This document shows positions 39,956 through 53,126 of a stretch of 64,000 bases of DNA, one piece after another. A program made the translations under genes and the position numbers. The stretch comes from a virus. The notes beneath the pieces were generated by a model. It was not told where the DNA came from. It was given only the letters and a program-made list of their open reading frames with translations, and searched no databases. Where the stretch lies: positions 33,941 to 97,940 of the IMG/VR virus record IMGVR_UViG_3300032286_001304; one strand, 5' to 3'. How positions within the stretch are numbered: the first letter of the stretch is position 1; each line of letters starts with the position of its first letter.

Positions 39956-40747
39956 TTAATTATCTAAAGCATTTAATTCTAAACCTATTTTATCTTCTTC
40001 GTTTAGAAGAGAGCCTATGTGATAGGATCTTGCTTTGTTTGGATAAAAGCAAGATAAACTTTCTTGAGGATTACTAAAATATTTAACTGCGCGTCCAAAG
40101 TCATGTTCAACATGTGGGCCAAAAGAGTTTTGATTTTTAATAATTAATAATGTTGCATTTCGTAAATCGCGGGTTCTAAAAATAGATGGATTTAGAGAAA
40201 AATCAGAATGAACAAAAAAATCATCATCATGATGGCGGGAATATGTATCTATTCCATGTCTTTCCTTTAAATTATTAATTCTTTTAAATTCATCATTAAA
40301 TCTTGGAAATCTAACTTGTAGTATATTTGGATTTTTTTCAAGTAAATTTATTGCTTTATTAATCCATTTAAGCAAATCACCATCTTCAGCACGAATAAGC
40401 CAGTCGTCCTCTAGATGTAAAACATACTGACTCTCAAGAACTTTTGGATTATTATACATTCTAAAGATATCGGATAAATAACCTACTTGATGAGATACAT
40501 CAAAATGCTTCCAATCTTGAACTTCTAAATGGTTATTAAATCCATATAGAGATTTGAGTTCTTCAGCTATTTCATTTCCGAAAGATATTTCTTCATTATT
40601 TGTTACTTTTATATTGCTAAAAAGCGCAGAAAAGTTACCTAATGGAATTTGAGAGTTTAAATCATTTACAGTTTCTCGCCATCTTGTATTTATTCCCCAG
40701 TGTCCTTTTGTAGTTGCAAATAAAGCTATTGCTAATGGTATTTTCAT
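39956..40747 (-). CDS. GT-A-fold glycosyltransferase-like protein
   Basis: The 263 residues begin IPLAIALFATTKGHWGINTR. The acidic metal motif YVLHLEDDWLIRAEDG (about 108-123) is the EDD form seen in family-2-like enzymes, and HHDDDFFVHSDFSLNPSIFR lies in the acceptor half. It is tightly packed in the glycosylation operon. Confidence 0.75.
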   Translation of the reverse strand: MKIPLAIALFATTKGHWGINTRWRETVNDLNSQIPLGNFSALFSNIKVTNNEEISFGNEIAEELKSLYGFNNHLEVQDWKHFDVSHQVGYLSDIFRMYNNPKVLESQYVLHLEDDWLIRAEDGDLLKWINKAINLLEKNPNILQVRFPRFNDEFKRINNLKERHGIDTYSRHHDDDFFVHSDFSLNPSIFRTRDLRNATLLIIKNQNSFGPHVEHDFGRAVKYFSNPQESLSCFYPNKARSYHIGSLLNEEDKIGLELNALDN

Positions 40748-40751
40748 AAAA

Positions 40752-41651
40752 TTAAAATTTTGGCATATTATCCCAACTTTCTTGAGTATGAGAGTCCGTT
40801 ACCGTGTCGTCTTTTAAGATAAAGTATCTATAAAAATCATTTACCTGTTTATGACCATTTATAATTGGTCTAGTTACTTCATTCAAACCATTGCTTAATA
40901 GTTTTTTTACACCATCGGTAGTTCGTGGCAAATTATTATCACGTAATGCTTTTAATAAAGATTTTCTTAAAAATTCTAATTTTGGTAATACATTTATTCC
41001 ACCATGATGCTCTAATCCTAAGAAATTTTGATTTGAATTCGGTTGTAATAAATATTTAATATAATGATTTACAAAATGTTTTGGATCGTTTGCTCTCTTA
41101 ATTGGACGAAGATTTATTCTTATATCAGATTCATTTTTAAACGAAGGATCGTTTGATAACTCTATTATTCTTAAACGATTTTCTTTTTCTAAACAAGGAT
41201 CAATTAAGGTTATCAAAGATTCATGTGGAGTTCCAACATAAATCAAATCTTCGCGATAACGAACTAAGTATGGTTTAACATGATAACGAATAATATCTAT
41301 ATTACTATCATTCATATACTCACACCATCTACTAAGATTTAATGCAAATTTATTTCCAACTCTTTCTAATGTATCAATAATCAATAAAAAGTCGTTATCT
41401 TTAATTCCAGTTTCTCTAAAAATACGATTTCTCGACAAAGAATGATCGCCTGTATATGGGCCAAAGATAATATTACCTGCGCCTAATTCGTTATTTATTT
41501 TTAATAAATATTCTACACCTTTATCAAATTCATTAGAGTCATGAATTAAAGCACAAACTCCACGAATGTAAGGTTTGATTGGATCGACCAATTCAAATAT
41601 GTTTTCATATTCATTTGGTCCAGACATAAAAACTAAGTAAGGTTTATTCAT
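40752..41651 (-). CDS. Probable glycosyltransferase, divergent
   Basis: The 299 residues show a GT-A-like Rossmann half (KPYLVFMSGPNEYENIFELV, VCALIHDSNEFDKGVEYLLK) and an acidic motif FLLIIDTLERVG where a DxD is expected, followed by NLSRWCEYMNDSNIDIIRYH. Later LGLEHHGGINVLPKLEFLRK is unusual. Assignment rests on layout and operon context; a non-enzymatic paralogue is possible. Confidence 0.6.
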   Translation of the reverse strand: MNKPYLVFMSGPNEYENIFELVDPIKPYIRGVCALIHDSNEFDKGVEYLLKINNELGAGNIIFGPYTGDHSLSRNRIFRETGIKDNDFLLIIDTLERVGNKFALNLSRWCEYMNDSNIDIIRYHVKPYLVRYREDLIYVGTPHESLITLIDPCLEKENRLRIIELSNDPSFKNESDIRINLRPIKRANDPKHFVNHYIKYLLQPNSNQNFLGLEHHGGINVLPKLEFLRKSLLKALRDNNLPRTTDGVKKLLSNGLNEVTRPIINGHKQVNDFYRYFILKDDTVTDSHTQESWDNMPKF

Positions 41652-41851
41652 AAAATATTTTTTATTTTTTTGTATTTTTTAATAGCTATTTCTAAATCTG
41701 AATCTTCAAAATAGAATAAATCATTTGATTTGTATTCAGAATACATTTTTGCAAGAATACTCATTAATTGATTAAGTCTTAAATCTGGAGAATTATACCA
41801 AATTTTTTCAATATCTTCTAGAATTGATTTTATACGTTCTTTATTTCTCAT
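41648..41851 (-). CDS. DUF1040-like small protein, 67 aa
   Basis: MRNKERIKSILEDIEKIWYN, then SPDLRLNQLMSI, and an end DLFYFEDSDLEIAIKKY fit the pattern I recall for DUF1040 proteins (RxxxRIxxxLxxIxxxWxxxPDLRLxQLI ... D.FY.ED). Function is unknown. It overlaps glycosyltransferase genes by 4 nt on both sides. Confidence 0.65.
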   Translation of the reverse strand: MRNKERIKSILEDIEKIWYNSPDLRLNQLMSILAKMYSEYKSNDLFYFEDSDLEIAIKKYKKIKNIL

Positions 41852-42648
41852 GATAATAAAAGATTATGAAAGCATATCGGATTATTTTCAAGTTCAGTTT
41901 TTGAAATAATAACATTTTCTTGATTACCAGATCTTAACTCCCAATGTTCTTTCCATAATTTATTATTTATGTTCAATCTATGCTCAAATGAAAGATAACC
42001 AAGATGAACTGTAAATATATAATCACTTAATTGATCAACAAACATCGGATTCAAAACCATTTGATTAACAAAACTATGGCATCTAGCTAACTCTCCATTG
42101 ATATCAATTAACTCACAAGTATCTGACATAGATGTGTTTATTTTTCCATCTCCTCTTTTAGCATGTCGTATTACGCCACGATAAAAACCTGATTTATGCA
42201 TTCTAAATTTTTGTCCAATTTGCTGATCTGATCGAATTTTTTCGATAGATCCATAAACATCAAGAGAAGGAATCATCCAGCAATCAATTTGTGGATTTTC
42301 TAATAATGCTTTTGCATATAATTCCCATTTAGATTTTTGACTAAGTGGAATATACTCATCAGCATCCATCTGGATTTTTACTGGTTTAGTTGTAGCTTGT
42401 AGTGCTTCATTTTTGATTTTTCCATCCATTTCGATATCGTCATAAAGAAAAGATGTTTCAATTATTTTTATATTTTGATTAGCACCAATAAAATCTTTTA
42501 TTATCTGCAAAGTATTATCTTCTGATTTATTTATTGCAATAACTAATTCGCCATCTGAACCAATGAATTCAATAAAATTTTCAATACTTTGCTTCCAAGG
42601 GAAGTTATGTTTTTCTACATGGTAAAGTGAGGTATAAATACTAAACAT
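41848..42648 (-). CDS. Family-2-like glycosyltransferase
   Basis: This 266-residue GT-A enzyme begins MFSIYTSLYHVEKHNFPWKQ, has ELVIAINKSEDNTLQIIKDF (nucleotide side) and the DxD motif KIQMDADEYIPLS (about 91-103). GFYRGVIRHAKRGDGK and YLSFEHRLNINNKLWKEHWE belong to the acceptor half. It resembles bacterial LPS-core or phage glucosyl/heptosyl-type transferases in outline, but the donor cannot be assigned. Confidence 0.82.
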   Translation of the reverse strand: MFSIYTSLYHVEKHNFPWKQSIENFIEFIGSDGELVIAINKSEDNTLQIIKDFIGANQNIKIIETSFLYDDIEMDGKIKNEALQATTKPVKIQMDADEYIPLSQKSKWELYAKALLENPQIDCWMIPSLDVYGSIEKIRSDQQIGQKFRMHKSGFYRGVIRHAKRGDGKINTSMSDTCELIDINGELARCHSFVNQMVLNPMFVDQLSDYIFTVHLGYLSFEHRLNINNKLWKEHWELRSGNQENVIISKTELENNPICFHNLLLS

Positions 42649-42650
42649 AA

Positions 42651-43502
42651 TTAATTTGCTTTATTTTTAAATCTTTCTCTAACTTTGTCAATGTATTCTT
42701 TTTCTCTTTTTGTTACATCTAAACTACCCCAACAATTAAAGCTATGTAGTTTTTCTTTTTCTGGAATTCTACCATCTTCCCATTCACCACGAAACATAAT
42801 AATAAACTCTTCTGATGTTACATTTGGATATGAATTATTCTGAACTTTTGGAGCAATAATAACCCATGCTGCTTTTGTATCAGTTCTATGAACAAAAACT
42901 CCACCATCTCCCATATCTCTTACCGAATAAATTCCAAAATCTTGAAAAAATTTAGGATCTATATGTGCAATTTTTAATCCTCTTTGCTCAAAAATTTCTT
43001 GTAAATAATTTTCATTCCATCTTAATTCATGAAATTCACCCGGACCTCCATTTGGAAATGGACCAAGATTATTAAATACATCTGTTTTCATCATATGTGC
43101 CCTATCTGTCCAAACTCCTCTGCCTGATTGATCGCCGTTTAAGTCTATGCATGAATAGCCATTATCTAATAAACTTTTAAATTGATTAAAAGAATTTTCA
43201 TTTATTGGATATTGTAACCATTGGTCATTTTGAACAAATAAAAAATATTTAGTATCGCAGAATCTAATCAAATCAGTTTGACCATATCCGCCACCTCCAC
43301 CTCTTTTTTTGCTAATTAAAACATCACATAATCCTTCTTTATATATCTGCCAACAATAATCTTCAGAACAGCCATTATCAAGAAGAATTACTTTATGTGG
43401 TATATTTACATAGTTTTTTATAGAATTTAAACATAATCTTGTTTCAAACTCTTTGAGATAATCTAATACTAAAATAGATAACTCAGGATTGTATTCTTTC
43501 AT
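42651..43502 (-). CDS. Family-2-like glycosyltransferase with atypical metal motif
   Basis: This protein is about 283 residues from the ATG at 43502 (an ATG at 43529 overlaps the preceding gene more deeply). ELSILVLDYLKEFETRLCLN, with PHKVILLDNGCSED, is the GT2 start. The usual DxD is replaced by FLFVQNDQWL, and a Gly-rich loop KKRGGGGGYGQTDL precedes it. FGIYSVRDMGDGGVFVHRTD is in the acceptor half. Activity may be metal-independent or lost. Confidence 0.75.
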   Translation of the reverse strand: MKEYNPELSILVLDYLKEFETRLCLNSIKNYVNIPHKVILLDNGCSEDYCWQIYKEGLCDVLISKKRGGGGGYGQTDLIRFCDTKYFLFVQNDQWLQYPINENSFNQFKSLLDNGYSCIDLNGDQSGRGVWTDRAHMMKTDVFNNLGPFPNGGPGEFHELRWNENYLQEIFEQRGLKIAHIDPKFFQDFGIYSVRDMGDGGVFVHRTDTKAAWVIIAPKVQNNSYPNVTSEEFIIMFRGEWEDGRIPEKEKLHSFNCWGSLDVTKREKEYIDKVRERFKNKAN

Positions 43503-44370
43503 ATATTTTAATAATCCTATTAGAAACATTTACTTTGTCAAGCTTTTCTTGAATGTAAGATTGTAATTTTTTAATATCAAAAGAATTTCTATCTTTACGT
43601 AAGAAAAATGATATTGAGTGTGGATTTGGATAATTTCCAAACTCATAAGTGAAAAATTCATTAAAAGTTGTTAAATCATGACAAACAACGGGGATTGCTC
43701 CAGCAAGAACTCCTTCACAAGCTGGTAGTCCCAATCCTTCCCCTAAACTAGTCATTACAACATAATCAACCGAATTATATAAATCATTTAGCTTTTCGTC
43801 AGAAACTATACCTTCATAAGATCCCCATCCGATAGATTCCGAACCAACAATAGCTACTTCAGACTCTTGAAATCCAGCAAAAATTAATGAATTAATACCT
43901 AATTCAACTCGTTTTGATGGATCTCTTAATCGTCCAACCATCATTGCTTTATATTGAGGAAATTTTTTTATTCCATTTATTCTTTGAGAATCATTGATAT
44001 CTTTAGCTGGGTTATATATGATTGATGAATTTATTCTAAGATATCTATATAACTGAGATTGAACATATTTGCTAATGCATGTGACATGATCAGCTTCTAT
44101 TAATTCTCTATATGTAGCATTTAAGTCATAATTAGGAAAACACCACTCTGGAATATCCAGAACATTAAAAATAATTTTGCAATCTTTTTTAAGCTTTCCA
44201 TCTTTTTTATCTTTTATAATCTGAAACCTAGATGGTGATGGATTATTTGAATAAACTAAGTCTGCCTCTGTAATATGCTTTGTTATTTCATGTCCAAGAA
44301 TTATGAATCCATTCTCAATACGAGAAATTTGATCTCCATAAAATCTTGAGCCATCAGTAAAAATTTTCAT
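43483..44370 (-). CDS. GT4-like glycosyltransferase
   Basis: The 295 residues are GT-B: ADLVYSNNPSPSRF, DHVTCISKYVQSQLYRYLRI, MMVGRLRDPSKRVELGINSL (GR...KR donor phosphate binding), and the GT4 donor motif LGEGLGLPACEGVLAGAIPV (E-G-L-G-L-P-x2-E). It is the first gene of the long minus-strand glycosylation operon. No promoter with the usual hexamers is clear just upstream. Confidence 0.85.
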   Translation of the reverse strand: MKIFTDGSRFYGDQISRIENGFIILGHEITKHITEADLVYSNNPSPSRFQIIKDKKDGKLKKDCKIIFNVLDIPEWCFPNYDLNATYRELIEADHVTCISKYVQSQLYRYLRINSSIIYNPAKDINDSQRINGIKKFPQYKAMMVGRLRDPSKRVELGINSLIFAGFQESEVAIVGSESIGWGSYEGIVSDEKLNDLYNSVDYVVMTSLGEGLGLPACEGVLAGAIPVVCHDLTTFNEFFTYEFGNYPNPHSISFFLRKDRNSFDIKKLQSYIQEKLDKVNVSNRIIKIYERIQS

Positions 44371-44397
44371 TTAAAATATTTTGCTATTTAATTTATT

Positions 44398-44577
44398 CTA
44401 ATTATTTATTAATTTATATTCTTCTAATAATTTTAGGATTTTACTCTTACTTAATTCATCTAGATCATCAATTAAAACATGATTCACAATATCCTTCCAT
44501 TTTACCCAAACAACTCCTTTATTTTTAGATAAACCATAAAATTCTAATTTAGTTCCATTTGAGGTCGTAAGTTCCAT
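44398..44577 (-). CDS. Small hypothetical protein, 59 aa
   Basis: The frame begins with ATG at 44577 and encodes MELTTSNGTKLEFYGLSKNK, GVVWVKWKDIVNHVLI, and an acidic helical end DDLDELSKSKILKLLEEYKL. It is not recognised, but it has a well-placed divergent promoter at 44592-44620 and is the first minus-strand gene at the strand switch, so it may be an early regulator. Confidence 0.6.
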   Translation of the reverse strand: MELTTSNGTKLEFYGLSKNKGVVWVKWKDIVNHVLIDDLDELSKSKILKLLEEYKLINN

Positions 44578-44591
44578 TAGTAATAAAACAC

Positions 44592-44620
44592 ATAATTACT
44601 AGTTTTCATAAAAAAGTCAA
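44592..44620 (-). promoter_or_regulatory. Divergent promoter, leftward
   Basis: Minus strand: -35 TTGACT (44615-44620), 17-nt spacer, -10 AATTAT (44592-44597), 14 nt before the ATG at 44577. Back to back with the rightward promoter 44628-44656; the two -35 boxes are 7 bp apart. Confidence 0.65.
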
Positions 44621-44627
44621 ATTTTTA

Positions 44628-44656
44628 TTGACAAATTTATTAAAATAAAGAATACT
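44628..44656 (+). promoter_or_regulatory. Divergent promoter, rightward
   Basis: -35 TTGACA (44628-44633), 17-nt spacer, -10 AATACT (44651-44656), 5 nt to the ATG at 44662, implying a leaderless transcript. Confidence 0.65.
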
Positions 44657-44661
44657 TAGAT

Positions 44662-44859
44662 ATGAAAGTTGAATTCGTATCAGTAGATGAAAAAGAAAAA
44701 CATTATTCTTTAAGGACTTCTGATGGTCATGTCTATTTTGGACTAGATTATCTTAATTGCTGTTTTTTAAAGAGAGTTGGCAATAGATTTGATTTGTATT
44801 TAGATTTGTCTAGAGCAAAAGTTAAGATAGAAAAAAGAAGTCTTAGTAAGAAATTTTGA
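44662..44859 (+). CDS. Small hypothetical protein, 65 aa
   Basis: Not recognised. It is a beta-rich basic protein (MKVEFVSVDEKEKHYSLRTS, HVYFGLDYLNCCFLKR, and a Lys/Arg-rich end). It is the first rightward gene, driven by the promoter immediately before it. The size, basic charge and position at the divergent control region suggest an early regulator, without direct evidence. Confidence 0.65.
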   Translation: MKVEFVSVDEKEKHYSLRTSDGHVYFGLDYLNCCFLKRVGNRFDLYLDLSRAKVKIEKRSLSKKF

Positions 44860-44926
44860 CTTTTTCTTTTTATATCGGTATAATTCAGTGTATCAATTTT
44901 ATCTGTTTTTGCTTAATTTATTTTCC

Positions 44927-44955
44927 TTGACTCAATCAGCAGAAACTTCCTATAA
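44927..44955 (+). promoter_or_regulatory. Promoter of the candidate structured RNA
   Basis: -35 TTGACT (44927-44932), 17-nt spacer, -10 CTATAA (44950-44955; TATAAG with 18-nt spacing). Transcription would begin at about 44961, exactly where the first helix of the RNA starts. Confidence 0.6.
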
Positions 44956-44960
44956 GTAAT

Positions 44961-45630
44961 TATTCCACTATCCATATTCGCTAAAAATTTCTCATAACTA
45001 AAATCTAGTGGAATACTTTAAATTTAGCGCAGAACATTACAAAAAAAATTGGGTCCAATCCCCTATCCCCCGACAATGGTTAAAACTGTAAAGTCGGGGG
45101 TTATTTGCATACACTTGGTAATGATCAAAATCTATTAAGTCCAAGGGTCTTTAGCGGAGACTCAATGGTATGCAATCTTGAAAATTCGTTACGATTCGCG
45201 TCGTCTAAAAAACAGATCAGAGTAAAATCTGATGGGATAGCCCGCCGTGCATTTTGTAATTTTTATGAAATGGCTTGGAGTTGGGTTAAGTTGCCTTTGG
45301 CAGTTTAATCGGTTTTTTCGCACACGTTTCCTTCTGGCTAGAACCCAGAAACCAACTCTGTATTAGATTACATTACGCGATAAGTCTTGCTTCTCCCTAA
45401 GCTATCCAACTCTAATGGTGACATTAGATAGGTGAATAAAAAAACGGGCCTCAAGAAGTTTTGTCTTACAAATTAGCCTCTTATTAATACAGGGGCTAAT
45501 TGTTGTCATTTATTGCCTAAGAAGTTATCATCTTACATTAAAAACGTATTAAAGCGCGAAAGCGCAGCGAATGAATTTCCATAGGAAAATCATGAGCTTA
45601 TCGAACATGTTCTTGTATCTATTAAAAATA
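44961..45630 (+). ncRNA. Candidate large structured non-coding RNA (about 650-670 nt)
   Basis: The 818-bp stretch 44860-45677 has no credible gene but many strong helices. 10-bp helix 44961-44970/45006-45015, with loop 44979-44985 able to pair 45023-45029 as a pseudoknot. 45067-45074/45093-45100 (8 bp). A junction closed by 45105-45112/45168-45175 (8 bp) enclosing 45114-45118/45141-45145 and 45145-45150/45158-45163. 45216-45221/45228-45233. 45278-45284/45352-45358 enclosing a 12-bp arm (45284-45295/45299-45310) and hairpin 45332-45337/45345-45350. GNRA-capped stem 45411-45417/45422-45428 (GUGA). 45471-45480/45492-45501. GAAA-capped GCGC stem 45554-45565. Hairpin 45571-45593. A promoter precedes it. 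Size and complexity recall GOLLD or ROOL phage RNAs, but identity is unproven. I do not see tmRNA, RNase P or tRNA hallmarks. The 3' end is uncertain. Confidence 0.65.
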
Positions 45631-45632
45631 AC

Positions 45633-45661
45633 TTGACATTTTCTAGAAATAAACGAATACT
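45633..45661 (+). promoter_or_regulatory. Promoter of the rightward operon at 45678
   Basis: -35 TTGACA (45633-45638), 17-nt spacer, -10 AATACT (45656-45661), 16 nt before the ATG at 45678. The -10 and following leader (45656-45677) are repeated with one change at 49916-49937. Confidence 0.65.
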
Positions 45662-45677
45662 CAATAAAGATTAAGTT

Positions 45678-45944
45678 ATGCTAACTCCATTTTTACTAAG
45701 CCTCTCTATATATTTTTTCTTCTGGTTAATTAACTATGGTGGACTATTAGGAGATTTTATTCAGTCTAAGATACTGCCAAAACTTCCTGAAAAAGTTCAA
45801 TACGCCATGAAATGTGTTTTTTGTTTCATGTTTTGGGTTTCTATTTTTATAGTTCCATTTAGTTCTCTAGCTTGGTGGATAATTTTTGTGACACCAGTTT
45901 ATGGTTTATTCATAAATTTAACATATCTATCCTTAAATAAATAA
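45678..45944 (+). CDS. Small integral membrane protein, 88 aa
   Basis: Three hydrophobic segments are visible: about 1-25 (MLTPFLLSLSIYFFFWLINY), about 44-62 (KCVFCFMFWVSIFIVPFSSL) and about 63-85 (AWWIIFVTPVYGLFINLTYL). A CVFCFMFW motif resembles the C-x2-C-x-x-FW found in small phage and DUF1360-like membrane proteins. The role is unknown. It is the first gene downstream of the candidate RNA, with its own promoter. Confidence 0.75.
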   Translation: MLTPFLLSLSIYFFFWLINYGGLLGDFIQSKILPKLPEKVQYAMKCVFCFMFWVSIFIVPFSSLAWWIIFVTPVYGLFINLTYLSLNK

Positions 45945-45963
45945 AAAATTAAAAATTATTGTT

Positions 45964-46542
45964 ATGTTGCCACAACAAGTTCAAGAAGCATCTGACTCGG
46001 AATTAGCAAAATTAGTAAAAGATAATCAATCTAACGAAGCAATATCTGAAATAATCAATCGGCATACTGGCATTTATTTATCAGTTGTTAATTCTTTTAA
46101 AATACCATCTTTGCAAAAGAGTGAACTTTTAGATTCAAAAAATACAAATATATATAAATATACATTAAAATTTGATGATACTAAAAATTGCAAGTTATCA
46201 TCTTATCTTTATCAAAGCACATATTTTGATTGCTTAAAAATTTTAGATAGAACTGCAAAAACAGAGGAGATAGATGAAAATCAGTTTTCTGAGTCATTTC
46301 AATTCAATGATGATGAATCTGTTAAAAATATTTCGTTGCAAATAGCCAGAAACGTAGGAGGAAGAGATTTCGAGAAGATAATTGAAGCAAGACATTTTGG
46401 AGATTCTATTGGAAAACTTTCTTGGCATTTAATTCCTGCTAAAATAGGTAAATCTCATGAATGGGCAAGAAATATTTATAATACATACATTGAAAAATAT
46501 AAAGTAGAAATAAAAAACAAATTTAATTATATAAAATTTTAA
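45964..46542 (+). CDS. Divergent sigma-70-like factor
   Basis: The 192 residues show a region-2-like layout: SDSELAKLVKDNQSNEAISE, IINRHTGIYLSVVNSF, a Q/E-L-x-x segment LQKSELLDSKNTNIYKYTLK and FDDTKNCKLSSYLYQSTYFD, which parallels the sigma pattern of FDxxKGxKFSTYxxxxxxxD. After an acidic linker comes a region-4-like helix-turn-helix: GKLSWHLIPAKIGKSHEWAR. It could redirect host RNA polymerase to phage promoters. Identity is low and based on pattern, so this is a tentative assignment. Confidence 0.6.
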   Translation: MLPQQVQEASDSELAKLVKDNQSNEAISEIINRHTGIYLSVVNSFKIPSLQKSELLDSKNTNIYKYTLKFDDTKNCKLSSYLYQSTYFDCLKILDRTAKTEEIDENQFSESFQFNDDESVKNISLQIARNVGGRDFEKIIEARHFGDSIGKLSWHLIPAKIGKSHEWARNIYNTYIEKYKVEIKNKFNYIKF

Positions 46543-46543
46543 A

Positions 46544-47605
46544 ATGAGTCAAATAACATTTAACACGGCCTTAAACTCGCTAAGTTTTGGACAAACATCA
46601 ATTGCTATTCTAAGAGAAGCATACAAGGCAAATTTAGATTGTTGTATATTTCCAATAGGTCAACAAATTGATATTTCCGCACAAGTTCAGGATGAAGGAT
46701 TTAATAAATGGCTTCAACAAACAATTCAGCTATCTCCTAAAAAACAATCTAGGGATAATAGAGTTATTAAACTTTGGCATATAAATGGTTCGCTTGAATC
46801 ATATGGGAAAGAACAAGAATTAATCACTTTTCTAGAAACTGATCAAATTACAGAGTATGAATTAAATACTTTAAAAAATCAAAAAACTGTATGGGTAACT
46901 AGCAAATATACCAAACAAGTAATGGAAGATGCTGGTTTGAATAATGTTAAATATTTACAATTAGGCTTTGATACTCATAATTTCAAAAAATTAAATAAGC
47001 GTTATTATGATGATGGAATTACTGTAATTGGTTTAGGCGGAAAGTTTGAAGACAAGAGAAAAGCCCACGGTCAAACAATCAGAGCATTGTTAGATAATTA
47101 TGGCAATAACCCAAAGTTTATGCTTCACTTTGCGGTTACGAATCCATTCTTTAAACCGGAAGATAACGAACGAATAGTTCAACAACTAACTCAGGGCAAA
47201 AAATATACGAATGTTGTTTGGGTTCCGCTAATGGCTACAAATCAACAATATAATGATTTTCAAAACAGTTGTGATATTTGGTGCGCCACATCTAACGCCG
47301 AAGGTTATGATCTTCCAGCCTATCAAGCACTGTCTCTAGGCAAAAAAGTTGTTGCTGTTAACGCTCACGTTTATCCAGATTACTTAAATAATGAAAATTC
47401 TTTTCTTTTTGAGGCTTCTGGCAAGCAAACTTGTTACGATGGAGTATTTTTCCATAATGGACATCCATTTAATCAAGGTAATTTCTTCAGTTGGAAAACA
47501 GAAGATTTTATAAATAAACTAAACGAAGCTATTAGTTCTCCTAATAAGCCTCAAATAACTCCTAGAACTTATAAAGAAGTTTTTAATGAATTAATTACAA
47601 GTTAA
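46544..47605 (+). CDS. GT4-like glycosyltransferase
   Basis: The 353 residues are GT-B: N-terminal LNSLSFGQTSIAILREAYKA, KTVWVTSKYTKQVMEDAGLN, central VIGLGGKFEDKRKAHGQTIR (GxxxxxKR-type phosphate loop), NVVWVPLMATNQQYNDF and the donor motif ATSNAEGYDLPAYQALSLGK (E-G-x3-P-x2-x-A-L). It follows the sigma-like gene by 1 nt. The target may be the same glycan as in the minus-strand island. Confidence 0.82.
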   Translation: MSQITFNTALNSLSFGQTSIAILREAYKANLDCCIFPIGQQIDISAQVQDEGFNKWLQQTIQLSPKKQSRDNRVIKLWHINGSLESYGKEQELITFLETDQITEYELNTLKNQKTVWVTSKYTKQVMEDAGLNNVKYLQLGFDTHNFKKLNKRYYDDGITVIGLGGKFEDKRKAHGQTIRALLDNYGNNPKFMLHFAVTNPFFKPEDNERIVQQLTQGKKYTNVVWVPLMATNQQYNDFQNSCDIWCATSNAEGYDLPAYQALSLGKKVVAVNAHVYPDYLNNENSFLFEASGKQTCYDGVFFHNGHPFNQGNFFSWKTEDFINKLNEAISSPNKPQITPRTYKEVFNELITS

Positions 47606-47619
47606 GTGTAAATAAATAT

Positions 47620-48405
47620 ATGACAACCCTTCAAGAAATACTAAATAAAGATGATGTTTTTGCCGCTGTTGACTATAAAGACCAATCTCTTTTAGATAAC
47701 GTCAAAAAAGCTGCTGATAAAAAATTTGGAACTAATCGTTCTTATGTAAAGAATCTATGGATTCTACGTGAATATAAAAAGCGTGGTGGTAAAGTAAAGT
47801 ATTCTGGAAAACGTCCATCTAGCGATATTATTAAGAAAAATGTCCAAAAAGATGTTGAACGTATACGTCGCGAAAAAGCAAAAGGTGGAGTTGAAGTAGA
47901 TTTGAGCGGAATTGCCCGCGCTGTTTTTTTTGAACAAGAAGAAATTCTATTGGCCCATTTAATTGAAATAGACGAAGAAGTTCAAGACTTAGCTTCCGAT
48001 TTGATTTATTTATCTTCTACTGATTACGACACCTTTGAAGAATATATTTGCGAGGATGATTTATTTGAGACACAAGCAAAAGATAATTCTGATAAAATCT
48101 CAGAAGTATATAAAAAATATCACGAAATAGTTAATATGGGTTATGAGGCTCTCAAAAAATGGGCCGAAAATCCATGTTCACACGTTGCCTCGTTGAGTCG
48201 TGGCCCTATTAATCGTAATCTACGCTTGCTTTCTAAAAAACGCGATGAGTGGACGATGAGCGATGTTCGTAGCGCGAATAGAACAATTTCTTTTGTTAGT
48301 CGCATGAAAGGCGCGGAACAGGGCAATCCTACTAAAAGTAAAGATGGCAAATCTTGCCCATCTAAACGTGACATTTCTTTAAAAAATTGGGCATATTCTC
48401 CATAA
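47620..48405 (+). CDS. Hypothetical protein, 261 aa
   Basis: Not recognised. The N-terminal 100 residues are basic and helical (KKRGGKVKYSGKRPSSDIIK...), suggesting nucleic-acid binding, the middle is acidic, and the C-terminal part (SVRSANRTISFVSRMKG-like, then SKDGKSCPSKRDISLKNWAY) has an R/K-D-x-S-L-K-N-W-A-Y end seen in some phage proteins of unknown role. It is transcribed with glycosyltransferase and small genes. Confidence 0.75.
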   Translation: MTTLQEILNKDDVFAAVDYKDQSLLDNVKKAADKKFGTNRSYVKNLWILREYKKRGGKVKYSGKRPSSDIIKKNVQKDVERIRREKAKGGVEVDLSGIARAVFFEQEEILLAHLIEIDEEVQDLASDLIYLSSTDYDTFEEYICEDDLFETQAKDNSDKISEVYKKYHEIVNMGYEALKKWAENPCSHVASLSRGPINRNLRLLSKKRDEWTMSDVRSANRTISFVSRMKGAEQGNPTKSKDGKSCPSKRDISLKNWAYSP

Positions 48406-48443
48406 TATGGAATACTATGTTTATGCTTTAAATTTATATAAAA

Positions 48444-48653
48444 ATGCCAATTCCATTCCCGAATAAAAAAGAAAAAAGGTCAGAATTTCTTTCTCGCTGT
48501 ATGGGTGATAAAGTTATGAATGATGAATTTAATAATATATCACAACGATATGCGATTTGTTTTAAAAAATGGGAAGACAAAAAAAAAGCTGCATCTGCAA
48601 TAATTGAATCAAAAGACGATGAAGTAGCATATTTTATGGAGGATAATAACTAA
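48444..48653 (+). CDS. Small conserved phage protein, 69 aa
   Basis: KRSEFLSRCMGDKVMNDEFN, then NISQRYAICFKKWEDKK, fits a short phage family with the pattern E-F-x-x-R-C-M-x(6)-M-x-x-E-F-x(4)-Q-R-x-A-x-C-x-x-x-W, often found near head or structural genes. The conserved Cys residues may bind metal. It ends directly at the next ATG. Confidence 0.7.
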   Translation: MPIPFPNKKEKRSEFLSRCMGDKVMNDEFNNISQRYAICFKKWEDKKKAASAIIESKDDEVAYFMEDNN

Positions 48654-49057
48654 TGCCTGTCTATCTATTTGAGTCAGTAAATAAAGAAGGTTTATATACA
48701 GATATATTCTTTACTTTTAAAGATGCGCCAAGAATAGGCACAATCATTGAACATGAAGAAAAAAAATGGCGAAGGATTCCTACTTTGCCATATACAGCAA
48801 GTGATACACAAGCAATAGATCCATTCGACAATAAAGCTTTTGTAGAAAAAACAGGAAAGATGAAAGGCACTTGGGGAGATATGGAAAAATTTTCTGGTGA
48901 GCTATCAGAAAAGAGAGCTAAATTAGCAGGTGGTGAAGATCCAATCTTAAATAGATACGAAGACCAAAAACAGAAAGCTACTGGATTGGAATCATTTAGG
49001 CGCAAAAAGAATAAAGCTAAAGAAAAATTAGCAAAAAAAGGCATTATTCTAGAATAA
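48653..49057 (+). CDS. Hypothetical protein, 134 aa
   Basis: It is not clearly recognised. The start MPVYLFESVNKEGLYTDIFF resembles FmdB-type zinc-ribbon proteins (MPxYxFEC...), but the cysteines are missing. The C-terminal half is strongly basic and helical (RKKNKAKEKLAKKGIILE). It is coupled to the preceding gene by a 1-nt overlap (TAATG). Confidence 0.65.
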   Translation: MPVYLFESVNKEGLYTDIFFTFKDAPRIGTIIEHEEKKWRRIPTLPYTASDTQAIDPFDNKAFVEKTGKMKGTWGDMEKFSGELSEKRAKLAGGEDPILNRYEDQKQKATGLESFRRKKNKAKEKLAKKGIILE

Positions 49058-49060
49058 TCA

Positions 49061-49089
49061 TTGACAATAGTGGTGGATTGCTAGATAAG
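49061..49089 (+). promoter_or_regulatory. Promoter in front of the SSB gene
   Basis: -35 TTGACA (49061-49066), 17-nt spacer, -10 GATAAG (49084-49089). The -10 lies inside a hairpin-forming inverted repeat (49076-49104). About 120 nt of leader would precede the SSB start. Confidence 0.5.
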
Positions 49090-49104
49090 TTATTATCAGC
49101 AATC
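49076..49104 (+). other. 12-bp inverted repeat overlapping a -10 box
   Basis: Arms GATTGCT-a-GATAA and TTATC-AGCAATC with a GTTA loop and one bulged A. No U-tract follows. Because it covers the putative -10 box, it could be an operator for autoregulation of the SSB gene or an RNA hairpin in the leader. Confidence 0.5.
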
Positions 49105-49214
49105 TATCTCTATAAAATGACTAGAAATAGTGTAATTAATTTTCTAAACAAGTTAAAGTATTGAAAAAAAGTAAATATTGGAACTAGTTAAATAATAAAA
49201 ACAAGTAAAATAAT

Positions 49215-49892
49215 ATGGCATACGGTAAAAAAACTGGTGGTAATTCGGACTACAAACTTCTTGTATTCCGACTAAAAAACAAAGATGAGAACTCTAAAGA
49301 ATTAGTTCCTAATCTTTTTCAAGTTAGCGAAAAAGTAAATGATGAATGGGTAGCCAAAAAAGAAATGGTTTCTAATGTTAGTGGAAATCTAACAAAGCTT
49401 GAACTAGATACCAAAGAATATAATAATGAACCTTACAAAGTTATTAAGTTATTCTTACAGGATGAAGAATCAAAGGAAACTTATCTTATCGACCTAAGAT
49501 ACGGAAGGTTAACAAGAAATCTATTTAACTCTCTACTAGCTTTAGAATCATTTGATAATCTAGAAATTTCTAATTACGCTAAGGAATCTAAATCAGATGG
49601 TAAAACTTATCCAAATATCTCTCTATGGCAACGTGCGGCTGGAGCAGAAAAGGGAACTTTAATTAAGGGTAAATTTAACCTTAAAGAAATTCCACCTGCT
49701 GAAGAAGTAAAAGATAAGAAAGGCAAAGTTATTAAGAGAGACTATGCTGAAGTCGATGATTTCTTTGAAAAGCATCTTAAAGAATTTTCTGAGAAAATAG
49801 GTAAGAATAAGACAACTAAACCAGCAGCACCATCAAAAAAAGTCCAGAAAGATACTGATAATGAAGCTGGAGATGATGATATTCCATTCTAA
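49215..49892 (+). CDS. ssb: Single-stranded DNA-binding protein
   Basis: The body of this 225-residue protein is beta-rich (SDYKLLVFRLKNKDENSKEL ... YKVIKLFLQDEESKETYLID ... NISLWQRAAGAEKGTLIKG), consistent with an OB fold. A disordered Lys/Pro/Ala linker is followed by the acidic tip EAGDDDIPF, the hallmark C-terminal tail of bacterial and phage SSBs that recruits replication proteins. It would protect ssDNA for the DnaE/DnaB/primase replisome and RecA. It is flanked by promoter and terminator, so it is transcribed alone. Confidence 0.82.
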   Translation: MAYGKKTGGNSDYKLLVFRLKNKDENSKELVPNLFQVSEKVNDEWVAKKEMVSNVSGNLTKLELDTKEYNNEPYKVIKLFLQDEESKETYLIDLRYGRLTRNLFNSLLALESFDNLEISNYAKESKSDGKTYPNISLWQRAAGAEKGTLIKGKFNLKEIPPAEEVKDKKGKVIKRDYAEVDDFFEKHLKEFSEKIGKNKTTKPAAPSKKVQKDTDNEAGDDDIPF

Positions 49893-49915
49893 TTTAGAAT
49901 AAAATCTAAATAATC

Positions 49916-49957
49916 AATACTCAATAGAGATTAAGTTCTTTATTGAGTATTTTTTTG
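49916..49957 (+). terminator. Rho-independent terminator after ssb
   Basis: Arms AATACTCAATA (49916-49926) and TATTGAGTATT (49941-49951), 11 perfect bp with a 14-nt loop, followed by a run of T. Confidence 0.85.
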
Positions 49958-49968
49958 TCTAAAATAAA

Positions 49969-49997
49969 TTGACAAATTATTCATCTAAGTAAATAAT
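49969..49997 (+). promoter_or_regulatory. Promoter of the split glycosyltransferase operon
   Basis: -35 TTGACA (49969-49974), 17-nt spacer, -10 AATAAT (49992-49997), 7 nt to the ATG at 50005; predicted leaderless start. Confidence 0.65.
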
Positions 49998-50004
49998 AGT
50001 CGAT

Positions 50005-51915
50005 ATGTCTCAAAAGAAAAGGGTTTTAATTCATACAAATGCACCTTGGCTTAAAACAGGTTTAGCTGAAAATGGAAAAATTCTAGCCAAATATTTATTC
50101 AAAACAAATAAGTATGAATTATTTTATTACTGCTCTCAGACATATGAAAATGATCCACAGCTTCAAACGACACCTTGGAAGTCATTTGGTTGCATTCCCG
50201 CAGACCCTCATATTCAAAGTCAGTTAAATCAAGATCCATCAAAAGCGCGAGATACTGCTTATGGAGCTTATTTTATAGATAAAATTATCAAGGAAAATAA
50301 AATTGATGTCTATATTGGTTCAGATGATATATGGTCATTTAATGGATATGTAGATAAGCCTTGGTGGAATAAAATAAATTCATGTTTACATATAACTGTA
50401 GATTCACTTCCAATTTTAGAGTCCGCAATCGATCAAGCTTCAAAAACAAAGAATTACTTTACTTGGACAAAATTTCCACTAGAAGAATTTCGTCAAAAAA
50501 ATCTTCATAATGTTAAAAATATTTATGGAGTCATGGATACAGAAATATATTCTCCAATAACTAAAGAGAACAAACAGCATTTAAGAAATCTTTTTAACAT
50601 AGACCAAAATACAATTATCTTTGGATATGTTTTTAGAAATCAACTAAGAAAAAGAACTCTACAACTTTTAAAAGCATTTTCTGAGTTTAAGAAAAAGAAT
50701 CCTGATGTAAAAGCTAAAATTCATTTACATACAAGTTTCTCTGAAAATGGACATGGATGGAATATCCCTAAGATGATTAGATATTTCAATATTAAAAATG
50801 AAGATATTCTATGCACTTATGTATGTAAAAAATGCGGAAAATGGATAGTAGCTCCATATCAGGGAGAAGATATAAATTGTCCAATTTGCAAAGCGGAAAA
50901 ATCAATGATTACTCCAACTATTGCCACTGGAGTTCCGCATGAAGAAATGAAATTTCTCTATGGAATATGGGATGCTGGAGTTAGTCCTATGAATTCCGGT
51001 GGTCTAGAATACCATAATTGCAATACTTTACTATGCGGACTTCCTCTTGCATCAACAAATTACTCATCCGGTGAAGATTTTTGTGAACAATCTTTTGTAT
51101 TTCCTATTAATTGGGAAATGGATTTTGAACCAGGAACAAATTTCATAAAAGCGGCCCCATGTATTAAATCAATAGTTGGATTCATGGAAAAGATTTCAAG
51201 AATGACAGAGTCAGAAAGAAAATCAATCGGTGAAAAGGGCAGAACTTGGGCCAAAGCTACCTTCTCAATAGATACAGTTGGTAAACAATGGGAGGAAGTA
51301 ATCGACTCATCTGCTTTTGTTGATTGGGATAATATAAATTTAGAACAACCCAAATCTAATGAAAATTATGTTCTTCCAAATAATTATAAAGAAATTCCTG
51401 ATAATGATTTCGTAAAACTTCTTTATAATAATATCTTAAATAGAGATCCAGATGAAAATGGATTTAAGAACTGGATGACTCAACTTAATAATAAAGCACC
51501 TAGAGAAAAGCTTTATGAATATTTTATAGACGTTGCAAGAAAAGAAAATATAGAAAAGAAAACTATTTCAGCATTTGATTTGATAGATAAGAATAGAAGT
51601 AATAAAAGGCTAATATTTGTAACTCCTCAAAGTGCGGGTGATATATTTATTGTATCTTCAATATTAAAAGCTGTAAAAGAACAGTATTTTAATTACGATA
51701 TATATTTCATGTGCGACCAAAAGTTCCATGAGATACTAGAAGGAAATCCATATATTCATAAAATCTTGCCTTGGATTCCACAATTTGATAATGAAATGTT
51801 TGCTATTGGAGCAGGTCAAACTGAACAACTTTTTCATGCATATTTAAATCCAACAGTTGCAACTCAAGCAAAATTAGCATATCTAGGAAATACTAACCCA
51901 AAATTTAATAAATAA
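50005..51915 (+). CDS. GT4 - zinc ribbon - DUF4214 - GT9 N-half fusion glycosyltransferase
   Basis: In this 636-residue protein, residues about 1-440 are a GT-B transferase (VLIHTNAPWLKTGLAENGKI, NQLRKRTLQLLKAFSEF, MNSGGLEYHNCNTLLCGLPL). Inside it, CKKCGKWIVA...CPICKAE (about 275-300) looks like an inserted zinc ribbon. Residues about 460-515 (FVKLLYNNILNRDPDENGFK, NWMTQLNNKAPREKLYEYF) match DUF4214, a domain often fused to bacterial glycosyltransferases. Residues about 535-636 (RLIFVTPQSAGDIFIVSSIL) are the N-terminal half of a GT9 heptosyltransferase fold. The C-terminal half is the next ORF, which begins in the TAATG overlap, so the GT9 enzyme appears split in two. Confidence 0.85.
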   Translation: MSQKKRVLIHTNAPWLKTGLAENGKILAKYLFKTNKYELFYYCSQTYENDPQLQTTPWKSFGCIPADPHIQSQLNQDPSKARDTAYGAYFIDKIIKENKIDVYIGSDDIWSFNGYVDKPWWNKINSCLHITVDSLPILESAIDQASKTKNYFTWTKFPLEEFRQKNLHNVKNIYGVMDTEIYSPITKENKQHLRNLFNIDQNTIIFGYVFRNQLRKRTLQLLKAFSEFKKKNPDVKAKIHLHTSFSENGHGWNIPKMIRYFNIKNEDILCTYVCKKCGKWIVAPYQGEDINCPICKAEKSMITPTIATGVPHEEMKFLYGIWDAGVSPMNSGGLEYHNCNTLLCGLPLASTNYSSGEDFCEQSFVFPINWEMDFEPGTNFIKAAPCIKSIVGFMEKISRMTESERKSIGEKGRTWAKATFSIDTVGKQWEEVIDSSAFVDWDNINLEQPKSNENYVLPNNYKEIPDNDFVKLLYNNILNRDPDENGFKNWMTQLNNKAPREKLYEYFIDVARKENIEKKTISAFDLIDKNRSNKRLIFVTPQSAGDIFIVSSILKAVKEQYFNYDIYFMCDQKFHEILEGNPYIHKILPWIPQFDNEMFAIGAGQTEQLFHAYLNPTVATQAKLAYLGNTNPKFNK

Positions 51916-53126
51916 TGTCATCTTTAGCAACAACTTATGCAAATGCGTTAGGGCTTCCTCTTAACGAAATGTATGTTAGAAAACAATTTTATCCTCTTGA
52001 TTTTCAGAGCTACATAACGATACAGCCATTCAGTTCAAATCAGAATTCAAAAAATTATGATTATTGGAATGAAGTTTTATCAGTATTATCACCTTTATTA
52101 AATTCTTGTGGTATTAAAATAGTTCAAATTGGCGCAAAAGATGAACCTCCACTAAATGGATGCTTTCATACTATGGGTAAGACTAATTTCCCACAAGCAT
52201 CTTATTTAATAAGTAATGCTTTACTGCATCTTGGCGCAGATTCCTTTGGTCAACATGTTGCTGGTGCATGTGGAATTCCATTGGTAGTTATTTTTGGTTC
52301 AACAAATCCAGATTGTCATGGCGCGAAATGGAAGAAAGACTATATTTTTATTGAATCTCATAGATTTGGAAGAAATCCTTCTTTTGGTAATGAAGGAGAA
52401 AAAACAATTAATCTAATTCCACCAGAAGAAATAATAAATTCTACTATTTCTCTTCTTAAAATAAATGCAAAAATAAATTCTAAATCTACTTATATAGGTC
52501 CAAAATATAACCAAGCAGTTATTGAATGGATTCCTGATGCTCCTCTTGGATCGGAATTCATGAAAGGAATACCTGTTGTTGCCAGACTTGATTGGGGAGG
52601 TAATGAAGAAATTTTTCTGAATACTTTATCTTTAAGAAAATTAAATATATATATTAATTCTGATATTAATATTGATAAATTACATCAATTTAAAGAAAAT
52701 ATAGATCAAATAATTATTGAATTTGATAATAAAAATTTTATTTCCGTAGATTTTATAAGAAGATTAAAGTCATTAGGCGTGAAGATAACCTCTATTTGTT
52801 ATGAACTTGAAGGTGATAAATTAAATGAAAAGAGATTTGAATTCTTCGATCATTGTCAGATTATAAAAATTAATCATAAAACAATTATTGATTTTGAAAA
52901 TAATGTTAGAAAATATCTGAATGATAAGTCATATATATTCAATGAAAATAAAAGAAATATATTTAAGACAAATAAGATAATTTTATCTAAAGGTAAATTT
53001 TATCTATCAAAATATAATTTATCTAATAATTTACCAACAAATGACTTAAATAAAAATTTTTCTAACGTAGTAAATGACAATGAATTTTGGAAAGAACAAG
53101 AACATTTTTACTTTGTTCAAGAATAA
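51915..53126 (+). CDS. GT9 C-terminal half plus extra domain
   Basis: The first 185 of these 403 residues continue the GT9 fold started in the previous gene: YITIQPFSSNQNSKNYDYWN, IKIVQIGAKDEPP, and the donor motif LLHLGADSFGQHVAGACGIP followed by LVVIFGSTNPD (D-S-x-G-x-H...FG-x-T-x-P). The remaining 200 residues, rich in Ile, Asn and Lys, form an alpha/beta region I do not recognise. The ATG overlaps the preceding stop by 1 nt, so both halves are probably made together and associate. The donor is inferred to be ADP-heptose. Confidence 0.82.
   Translation: MSSLATTYANALGLPLNEMYVRKQFYPLDFQSYITIQPFSSNQNSKNYDYWNEVLSVLSPLLNSCGIKIVQIGAKDEPPLNGCFHTMGKTNFPQASYLISNALLHLGADSFGQHVAGACGIPLVVIFGSTNPDCHGAKWKKDYIFIESHRFGRNPSFGNEGEKTINLIPPEEIINSTISLLKINAKINSKSTYIGPKYNQAVIEWIPDAPLGSEFMKGIPVVARLDWGGNEEIFLNTLSLRKLNIYINSDINIDKLHQFKENIDQIIIEFDNKNFISVDFIRRLKSLGVKITSICYELEGDKLNEKRFEFFDHCQIIKINHKTIIDFENNVRKYLNDKSYIFNENKRNIFKTNKIILSKGKFYLSKYNLSNNLPTNDLNKNFSNVVNDNEFWKEQEHFYFVQE

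Follow-up and report, generated by a model that had tools for sequence, protein, structure and literature searches.

In this study, we describe in an unclassified virus that infects bacteria a segment of about 640 nt that, judged by comparison of two related phages and by predicted folding, is a conserved, structured, noncoding RNA read from the plus strand (Table 1). We hold it highly likely that this RNA is real, and very probably it is a new kind of large folded RNA. The explanation that we favor, with a probability of roughly 0.6, is a noncoding phage RNA that acts in trans and belongs to a new family, with members so far in two related phages; action in trans is read from its position and size only. 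The original prediction had placed at this site a large structured noncoding RNA, perhaps of a new class, that resembled the phage RNAs GOLLD and ROOL in size and ornateness. Its conservation, the strand-specific preservation of its base pairs and the lack of a match in Rfam agree with that part of the proposal which concerns a large structured RNA of a class new to Rfam; the likeness to GOLLD and ROOL is one of size, ornateness and phage origin.

Genome context of the gene-free gap

The window, a stretch of 64 kb, is the right-hand part of a 97,940-bp IMG/VR contig (G000). Because both ends of this contig match a second one (G004, IMGVR_UViG_3300032286_001614, 71,745 bp) at 100%, over 123 bp (G004:71623-71745 with G000:1-123) and 103 bp (G004:1-103 with G000:97838-97940), the simplest reading is that together they make up a single circular phage genome of about 169.5 kb, one half each. 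The phage encodes a lambda-type tail protein J, a ribonucleotide reductase, a DNA polymerase and a DnaB-like helicase. Its portal protein gave a remote match only (Bacillus phage G) in a search of 50,697 named phage records, in which the capsid protein of a near relative (G002) gave none. From reading its 1045-aa translation, a terminase-like gene on G004 (L022 8445-11582, minus strand) carries an apparent intein-like insertion.

The 818-bp gene-free gap that had been predicted in a dense genome is indeed present at 44860-45677 of the window, in a contig that is about 94% coding. It lies between a 65-aa gene (44662-44859) and the gene of an 88-aa membrane protein (45678-45944), all on the plus strand. 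At an ORF cut-off of 45 aa, the gap accounts for two ORF-free stretches of 369 and 305 bp, which rank second and third in size on the contig and have between them a single short ORF, frameshifted in the homologue described below. The sole larger ORF-free stretch is a tRNA island (Arg, Leu, Met, Gly) on the minus strand to the left of the window (L008, G000:C1 3600-5600; about 1.8 kb ORF-free). The window itself holds no tRNA gene, and the four of the phage lie at 3.6-4.7 kb, more than 70 kb from the RNA on the contig. Structured-looking units stand between these tRNAs, several preceded by TTTTTGTTCTTT or a variant, and one ends in a tRNA-like T-arm (ATTGGTTCGATTCCAAT) without a clear anticodon arm; the only Rfam matches in the island are the tRNAs.

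As to the neighboring genes, the upstream 65-aa protein, folded as a possible RNA binder, gave a small beta model of low confidence that matched nothing in the PDB, and the 88-aa protein belongs to no recognised family. The 192-aa protein that follows (45964-46542, plus strand) has a poor structure model and matches phage RNA polymerase sigma factors weakly (phrog_351, E 4.6e-4); it is possible that it is a phage sigma factor. Glycosyltransferase-like genes lie on both sides of the RNA (39956-53126; e.g., 43483-44370, 46544-47605, 50005-51915, and 51915-53126) and probably modify phage or host surfaces or DNA. No defence-system protein was found adjoining the RNA.

Conservation in a second phage

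A single homologue of the RNA was found, in IMGVR_UViG_3300017722_004116 (G001), where the surrounding gene order is kept, with one additional gene after the 88-aa gene (L004:4269-4997). Over 44962-45602, 43 of 638 compared positions differ between the two phages (6.7%), compared with 51 of 203 four-fold degenerate sites (25%) in four flanking genes. The alignment indicates a sharply bounded conserved unit that starts at the proximal promoter and stops at about 45602, since divergence is zero at 44927-44961, 6.7% in the RNA and 40% in the spacer 45603-45622, which is the least conserved part; the segment 44860-44926 differs by 12%. The one ORF of any size within the RNA (67 aa, TTG start, 45105-45308) is frameshifted and stopped in G001. 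Because the RNA is so much better conserved than four-fold sites and its ORF is broken, the comparison indicates that it is not a protein that selection maintains; these two phages display the pattern looked for in a structured noncoding RNA, purifying selection on a sequence that lacks coding capacity.

Scans of IMG/VR with RNA patterns returned G001 only, and protein-based scans (the 88-aa and 192-aa neighbors, DNA polymerase, an alignment of tail protein J, and capsid) yielded no homologue beyond it. The tail protein J and capsid scans led to G002, G004, which is the window's own phage, and two short fragments (G003 and G005), none of which contains the RNA. G002 overlaps G001 at 99.9% over 12.7 kb, and these two contigs look like one second phage. 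No similar DNA was found in INPHARED phages and plasmids. Two MAG matches from a pattern scan of prokaryote genomes were rejected, as they showed no meaningful extension past the pattern.

Table 1. Features predicted in and around the RNA, with pair probabilities (p) and changes in the homologue G001
Feature	Position	Strand	Remarks
Distal sigma-70-like promoter, TTGACT-17-TATAAT	44856-44884	+	11/12 consensus matches; predicted start ~44891; both hexamers retained in G001
Proximal promoter, TTGACT-18-TATAAG	44927-44956	+	Identical in G001; predicted start ~44962
RNA candidate	44962-45602 (~640 nt)	+	Bounded by conservation; folding z -4.2; pair preservation P=0.0002
5' hairpin, stem 44962-44970/45006-45014	44962-45014	+	Stem p=0.96, joint fold
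Candidate closing helix of central domain, 45049-45056/45446-45454	45049-45454	+	p=0.81 in joint fold, 0.30 and 0.14 in single folds; 0 varying pairs
Hairpin CCCCCGAC/GUCGGGGG, inner stem 45076-45080/45085-45089	45067-45100	+	p=1.00; a single pair varies compatibly (U-G to C-G)
Three-way junction, outer stem 45105-45112/45168-45175, arms 45114-45145 and 45146-45162	45105-45175	+	p=0.95, 0.86, 0.91 in joint fold; one compatible change
Hairpin AUCAGA/UCUGAU	45216-45233	+	A-U to G-U and U-A to U-G, both compatible
Hairpin AUUUUGUA/UAUGAAAU	45251-45271	+	Three varying pairs, 3/3 kept
Arm closed by GGAGUUGG/CCAACUCU	45277-45359	+	p=0.79, 0.98, 0.92; three varying pairs kept; encloses 12-bp arm 45284-45310 and hairpin 45332-45350 (loop CUAGAAC)
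Invariant segment	45333-45375		No change in G001
Hairpin UCUAAUG-GUGA-CAUUAGA, GNRA loop	45411-45428	+	Loop GCAA in G001
12-bp hairpin CAAAUUAGCCUCU/AGGGGCUAAUUG	45469-45502	+	p=0.89; stem constant in G001, loop differs in sequence and length
Hairpin GCGC-GAAA-GCGC, GNRA loop	45554-45565	+	p=1.00; loop GUAA in G001
3' hairpin AGC..AUGAAUUUCC/GGAAAAUCAU..GCU	45566-45598	+	p=0.96-0.98; loop AUA to GCA in G001, stem constant
Promoter of the 88-aa gene, TTGACA-17-AATACT	45633-45661	+	10/12 consensus; between RNA and 88-aa gene

Promoters and transcription

The promoter that had been predicted at 44927-44955 is present and is the same in G001, but a closer consensus match upstream (44856-44884) had been missed. 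On the plus strand of the 97.9-kb contig, six of nine TTGAC[A/T] promoter-like sites fall within 44.6-50 kb, a count whose criterion is partly post hoc; generic promoter-like matches near the RNA are no commoner than in shuffles. This clustering suggests that 44.6-50 kb may be a block transcribed early by the host polymerase, and the designation of the gap as a control region would draw on its position in a plus-strand island rich in such sites. One site alone looks like a terminator, the 12-bp arm 45284-45310 and its T run. This arm is more likely internal to the RNA than a terminator, since a kept helix surrounds it and the sequence downstream is about equally conserved.

The main rival to a trans-acting RNA is a cis-acting structured leader, in which the transcript would continue into the 88-aa gene at 45678 and beyond and its structure would regulate those genes. 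It is in line with a leader that the RNA and the 88-aa gene have the same strand and order in both phages and that the 3' edge of the RNA shows no intrinsic terminator. However, the 88-aa gene has its own promoter at 45633, the poorly conserved spacer is unlike that of a leader coupled to its gene, and a leader of about 640 nt would be very long. We consider this explanation unlikely, though it deserves to be taken seriously.

On G004, about seven tandem TTGAC[A/T] promoter-like units occupy an AT-rich 650 bp of the minus strand (G004:C1 53190-53840; L023 13190-13840), and GC-rich segments, GGGGTGGGGCTGGGGC for example, come after several of them; from its sequence, this reads as a promoter array that may give rise to short transcripts.

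Folding and preservation of base pairs

Folding energy no better than that of shuffled sequence had been named as a result that would speak against the RNA. In either phage, none of 20 dinucleotide shuffles folds as well as the whole RNA (z -4.20 for the window and -3.85 for G001); the reverse strand departs less from its shuffles (z -2.83). The signal in 120-nt windows against shuffles is mild only (mean z -1.2 inside the RNA and -0.15 outside). Moreover, we compared the substitutions found in G001 with random placements of the same substitutions, using pairs predicted from the window alone. None of the 81 pairs with p>0.9 is broken, against 6.4 expected (P=0.0002), and the numbers broken are 4 against 9.6 at p>0.7 and 7 against 13.3 at p>0.5 (P about 0.01 each). 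The same test on the minus strand gave P values of 0.03, 0.25, and 0.19, respectively. In a joint fold of the two sequences all 11 varying pairs change to another standard pair, each by a one-sided change with no double changes, a count that is by itself no test because these two sequences themselves served to choose the joint fold.

Most of the elements originally proposed recur in these folds, namely the helix 44962-44970/45006-45014, the multi-helix junction (45105-45175), the arm of 12 bp at 45284-45310 and two GNRA-capped stems, whose loops (45418-45421 and 45558-45561) both differ in G001 and are still GNRA. The proposed pseudoknot (44979-44985/45023-45029) forms 7/7 pairs in the window but 6/7 in G001 and, with one pair lost, is plausible but unsupported. 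The global long-range architecture is uncertain in these models because the candidate closing helix is weak when each sequence is folded alone and the pseudoknot drops a pair in G001. Short loop palindromes (CUAG, UGAUCA) were discarded as kissing sites, as such short ones are expected by chance.

The preservation of pairs also bears on the suggestion that the gap works at the level of DNA, for instance as a replication origin or packaging site, with inverted repeats that mimic RNA stems. The gap is gene-free and conserved, and gene direction and GC skew switch sign there; however, the skew just tracks gene direction, no direct repeats were found at the gap, pairs (G-U allowed) are kept far better on the plus strand than on the minus strand, and GNRA loops, present on one strand, are characteristic of RNA. 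A DNA element is thus quite improbable.

Relationship to known large RNAs

A cmscan search of the 64-kb window with Rfam 15 at gathering thresholds found nothing, and the RNA region of both phages gave chance-level matches only to E=10. The GOLLD model (RF02032) had no match in G000, in a search in which no control genome reached the cut-off, and elsewhere in related contigs it matched fragments of 17-19 positions only, far below the cut-off. Across five contigs the ROOL model (RF03087) matched nothing at E<=10, and its positive controls gave no signal. By cmscan, no match was obtained with the Rfam models of OLE (to E=10) or of group I/II introns, tmRNA, RNase P and HEARO, and ARAGORN found no tmRNA. 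A reverse transcriptase (RVT_1) was found in none of G000, G001 and G004, with a control that gave a signal, and this absence rules out a retron, DGR or group II retroelement RNA. The covariance-model check that had been proposed (GOLLD, ROOL, OLE, tmRNA, RNase P, and introns) therefore points to a class absent from Rfam, and by these comparisons the RNA is new within the libraries searched (Rfam 15, named phages, and plasmids).

It could still be argued that the RNA belongs to a known class (GOLLD, ROOL, OLE, tmRNA, group I/II intron, HEARO or retron RNA) but is too divergent or incomplete to be detected, as its size and ornateness are compatible with GOLLD, ROOL, and OLE (PMC12286853) and models may miss very divergent members. 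The chance-level Rfam matches in both phages, the negative GOLLD and ROOL searches and the missing reverse transcriptase make us doubt this strongly. A decayed protein gene, to which the 67-aa ORF might point and which had been raised as a possible refutation, is effectively refuted by the broken ORF in G001 and by DNA better conserved than the flanking genes, which decay cannot produce.

For the favored trans-acting RNA, we propose that the host RNA polymerase would initiate transcription at one or both sigma-70-type promoters, probably early in infection, and that the transcript would fold into about a dozen stems, two of them GNRA-capped. By analogy with other ornate phage RNAs, it may then act in trans as a compact scaffold, either of a ribonucleoprotein or of an RNA multimer. 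More speculatively, it might represent a novel class among large ornate RNAs, whose sequence and fold have no kinship with those of GOLLD, ROOL, and OLE; it would be made early from host-type promoters and form an RNA-only or RNA-protein particle that serves infection. To our knowledge, few large structured bacterial and phage RNAs have been described. If this one is unrelated to them, it would point to more than one origin of big structured phage RNAs, and an RNA of about 640 nt is a compact object open to direct probing and imaging.

Two large structured phage RNAs were recently found to build RNA-only cages (PMC12286853). These RNAs, GOLLD and ROOL, belong to phages and prophages, often lie near tRNA islands and have no known function (PMC12286853). 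GOLLD is, like the candidate, phage-encoded, highly structured and of similar size class (PMC12286853), but it is frequently, though not obligatorily, near tRNA islands, whereas the candidate lies away from tRNA genes. ROOL, of about 570-660 nt, likewise shares its phage or prophage origin, size class, and intricate structure with the candidate (PMC12286853), which fails the ROOL model. The predicted likeness to both hence stands for size, ornateness, and phage origin, but not for model matches or for proximity to the tRNA island. OLE occurs mostly in Gram-positive extremophiles and anaerobes (PMC12054373), and its next gene encodes a protein that binds it (PMC5643018). While the candidate lacks an Rfam match and its 88-aa neighbor a recognised family, OLE has about 600 nt and a protein-binder gene downstream, and the candidate has about 640 nt and a small membrane-protein gene downstream, whose product is a putative binder.
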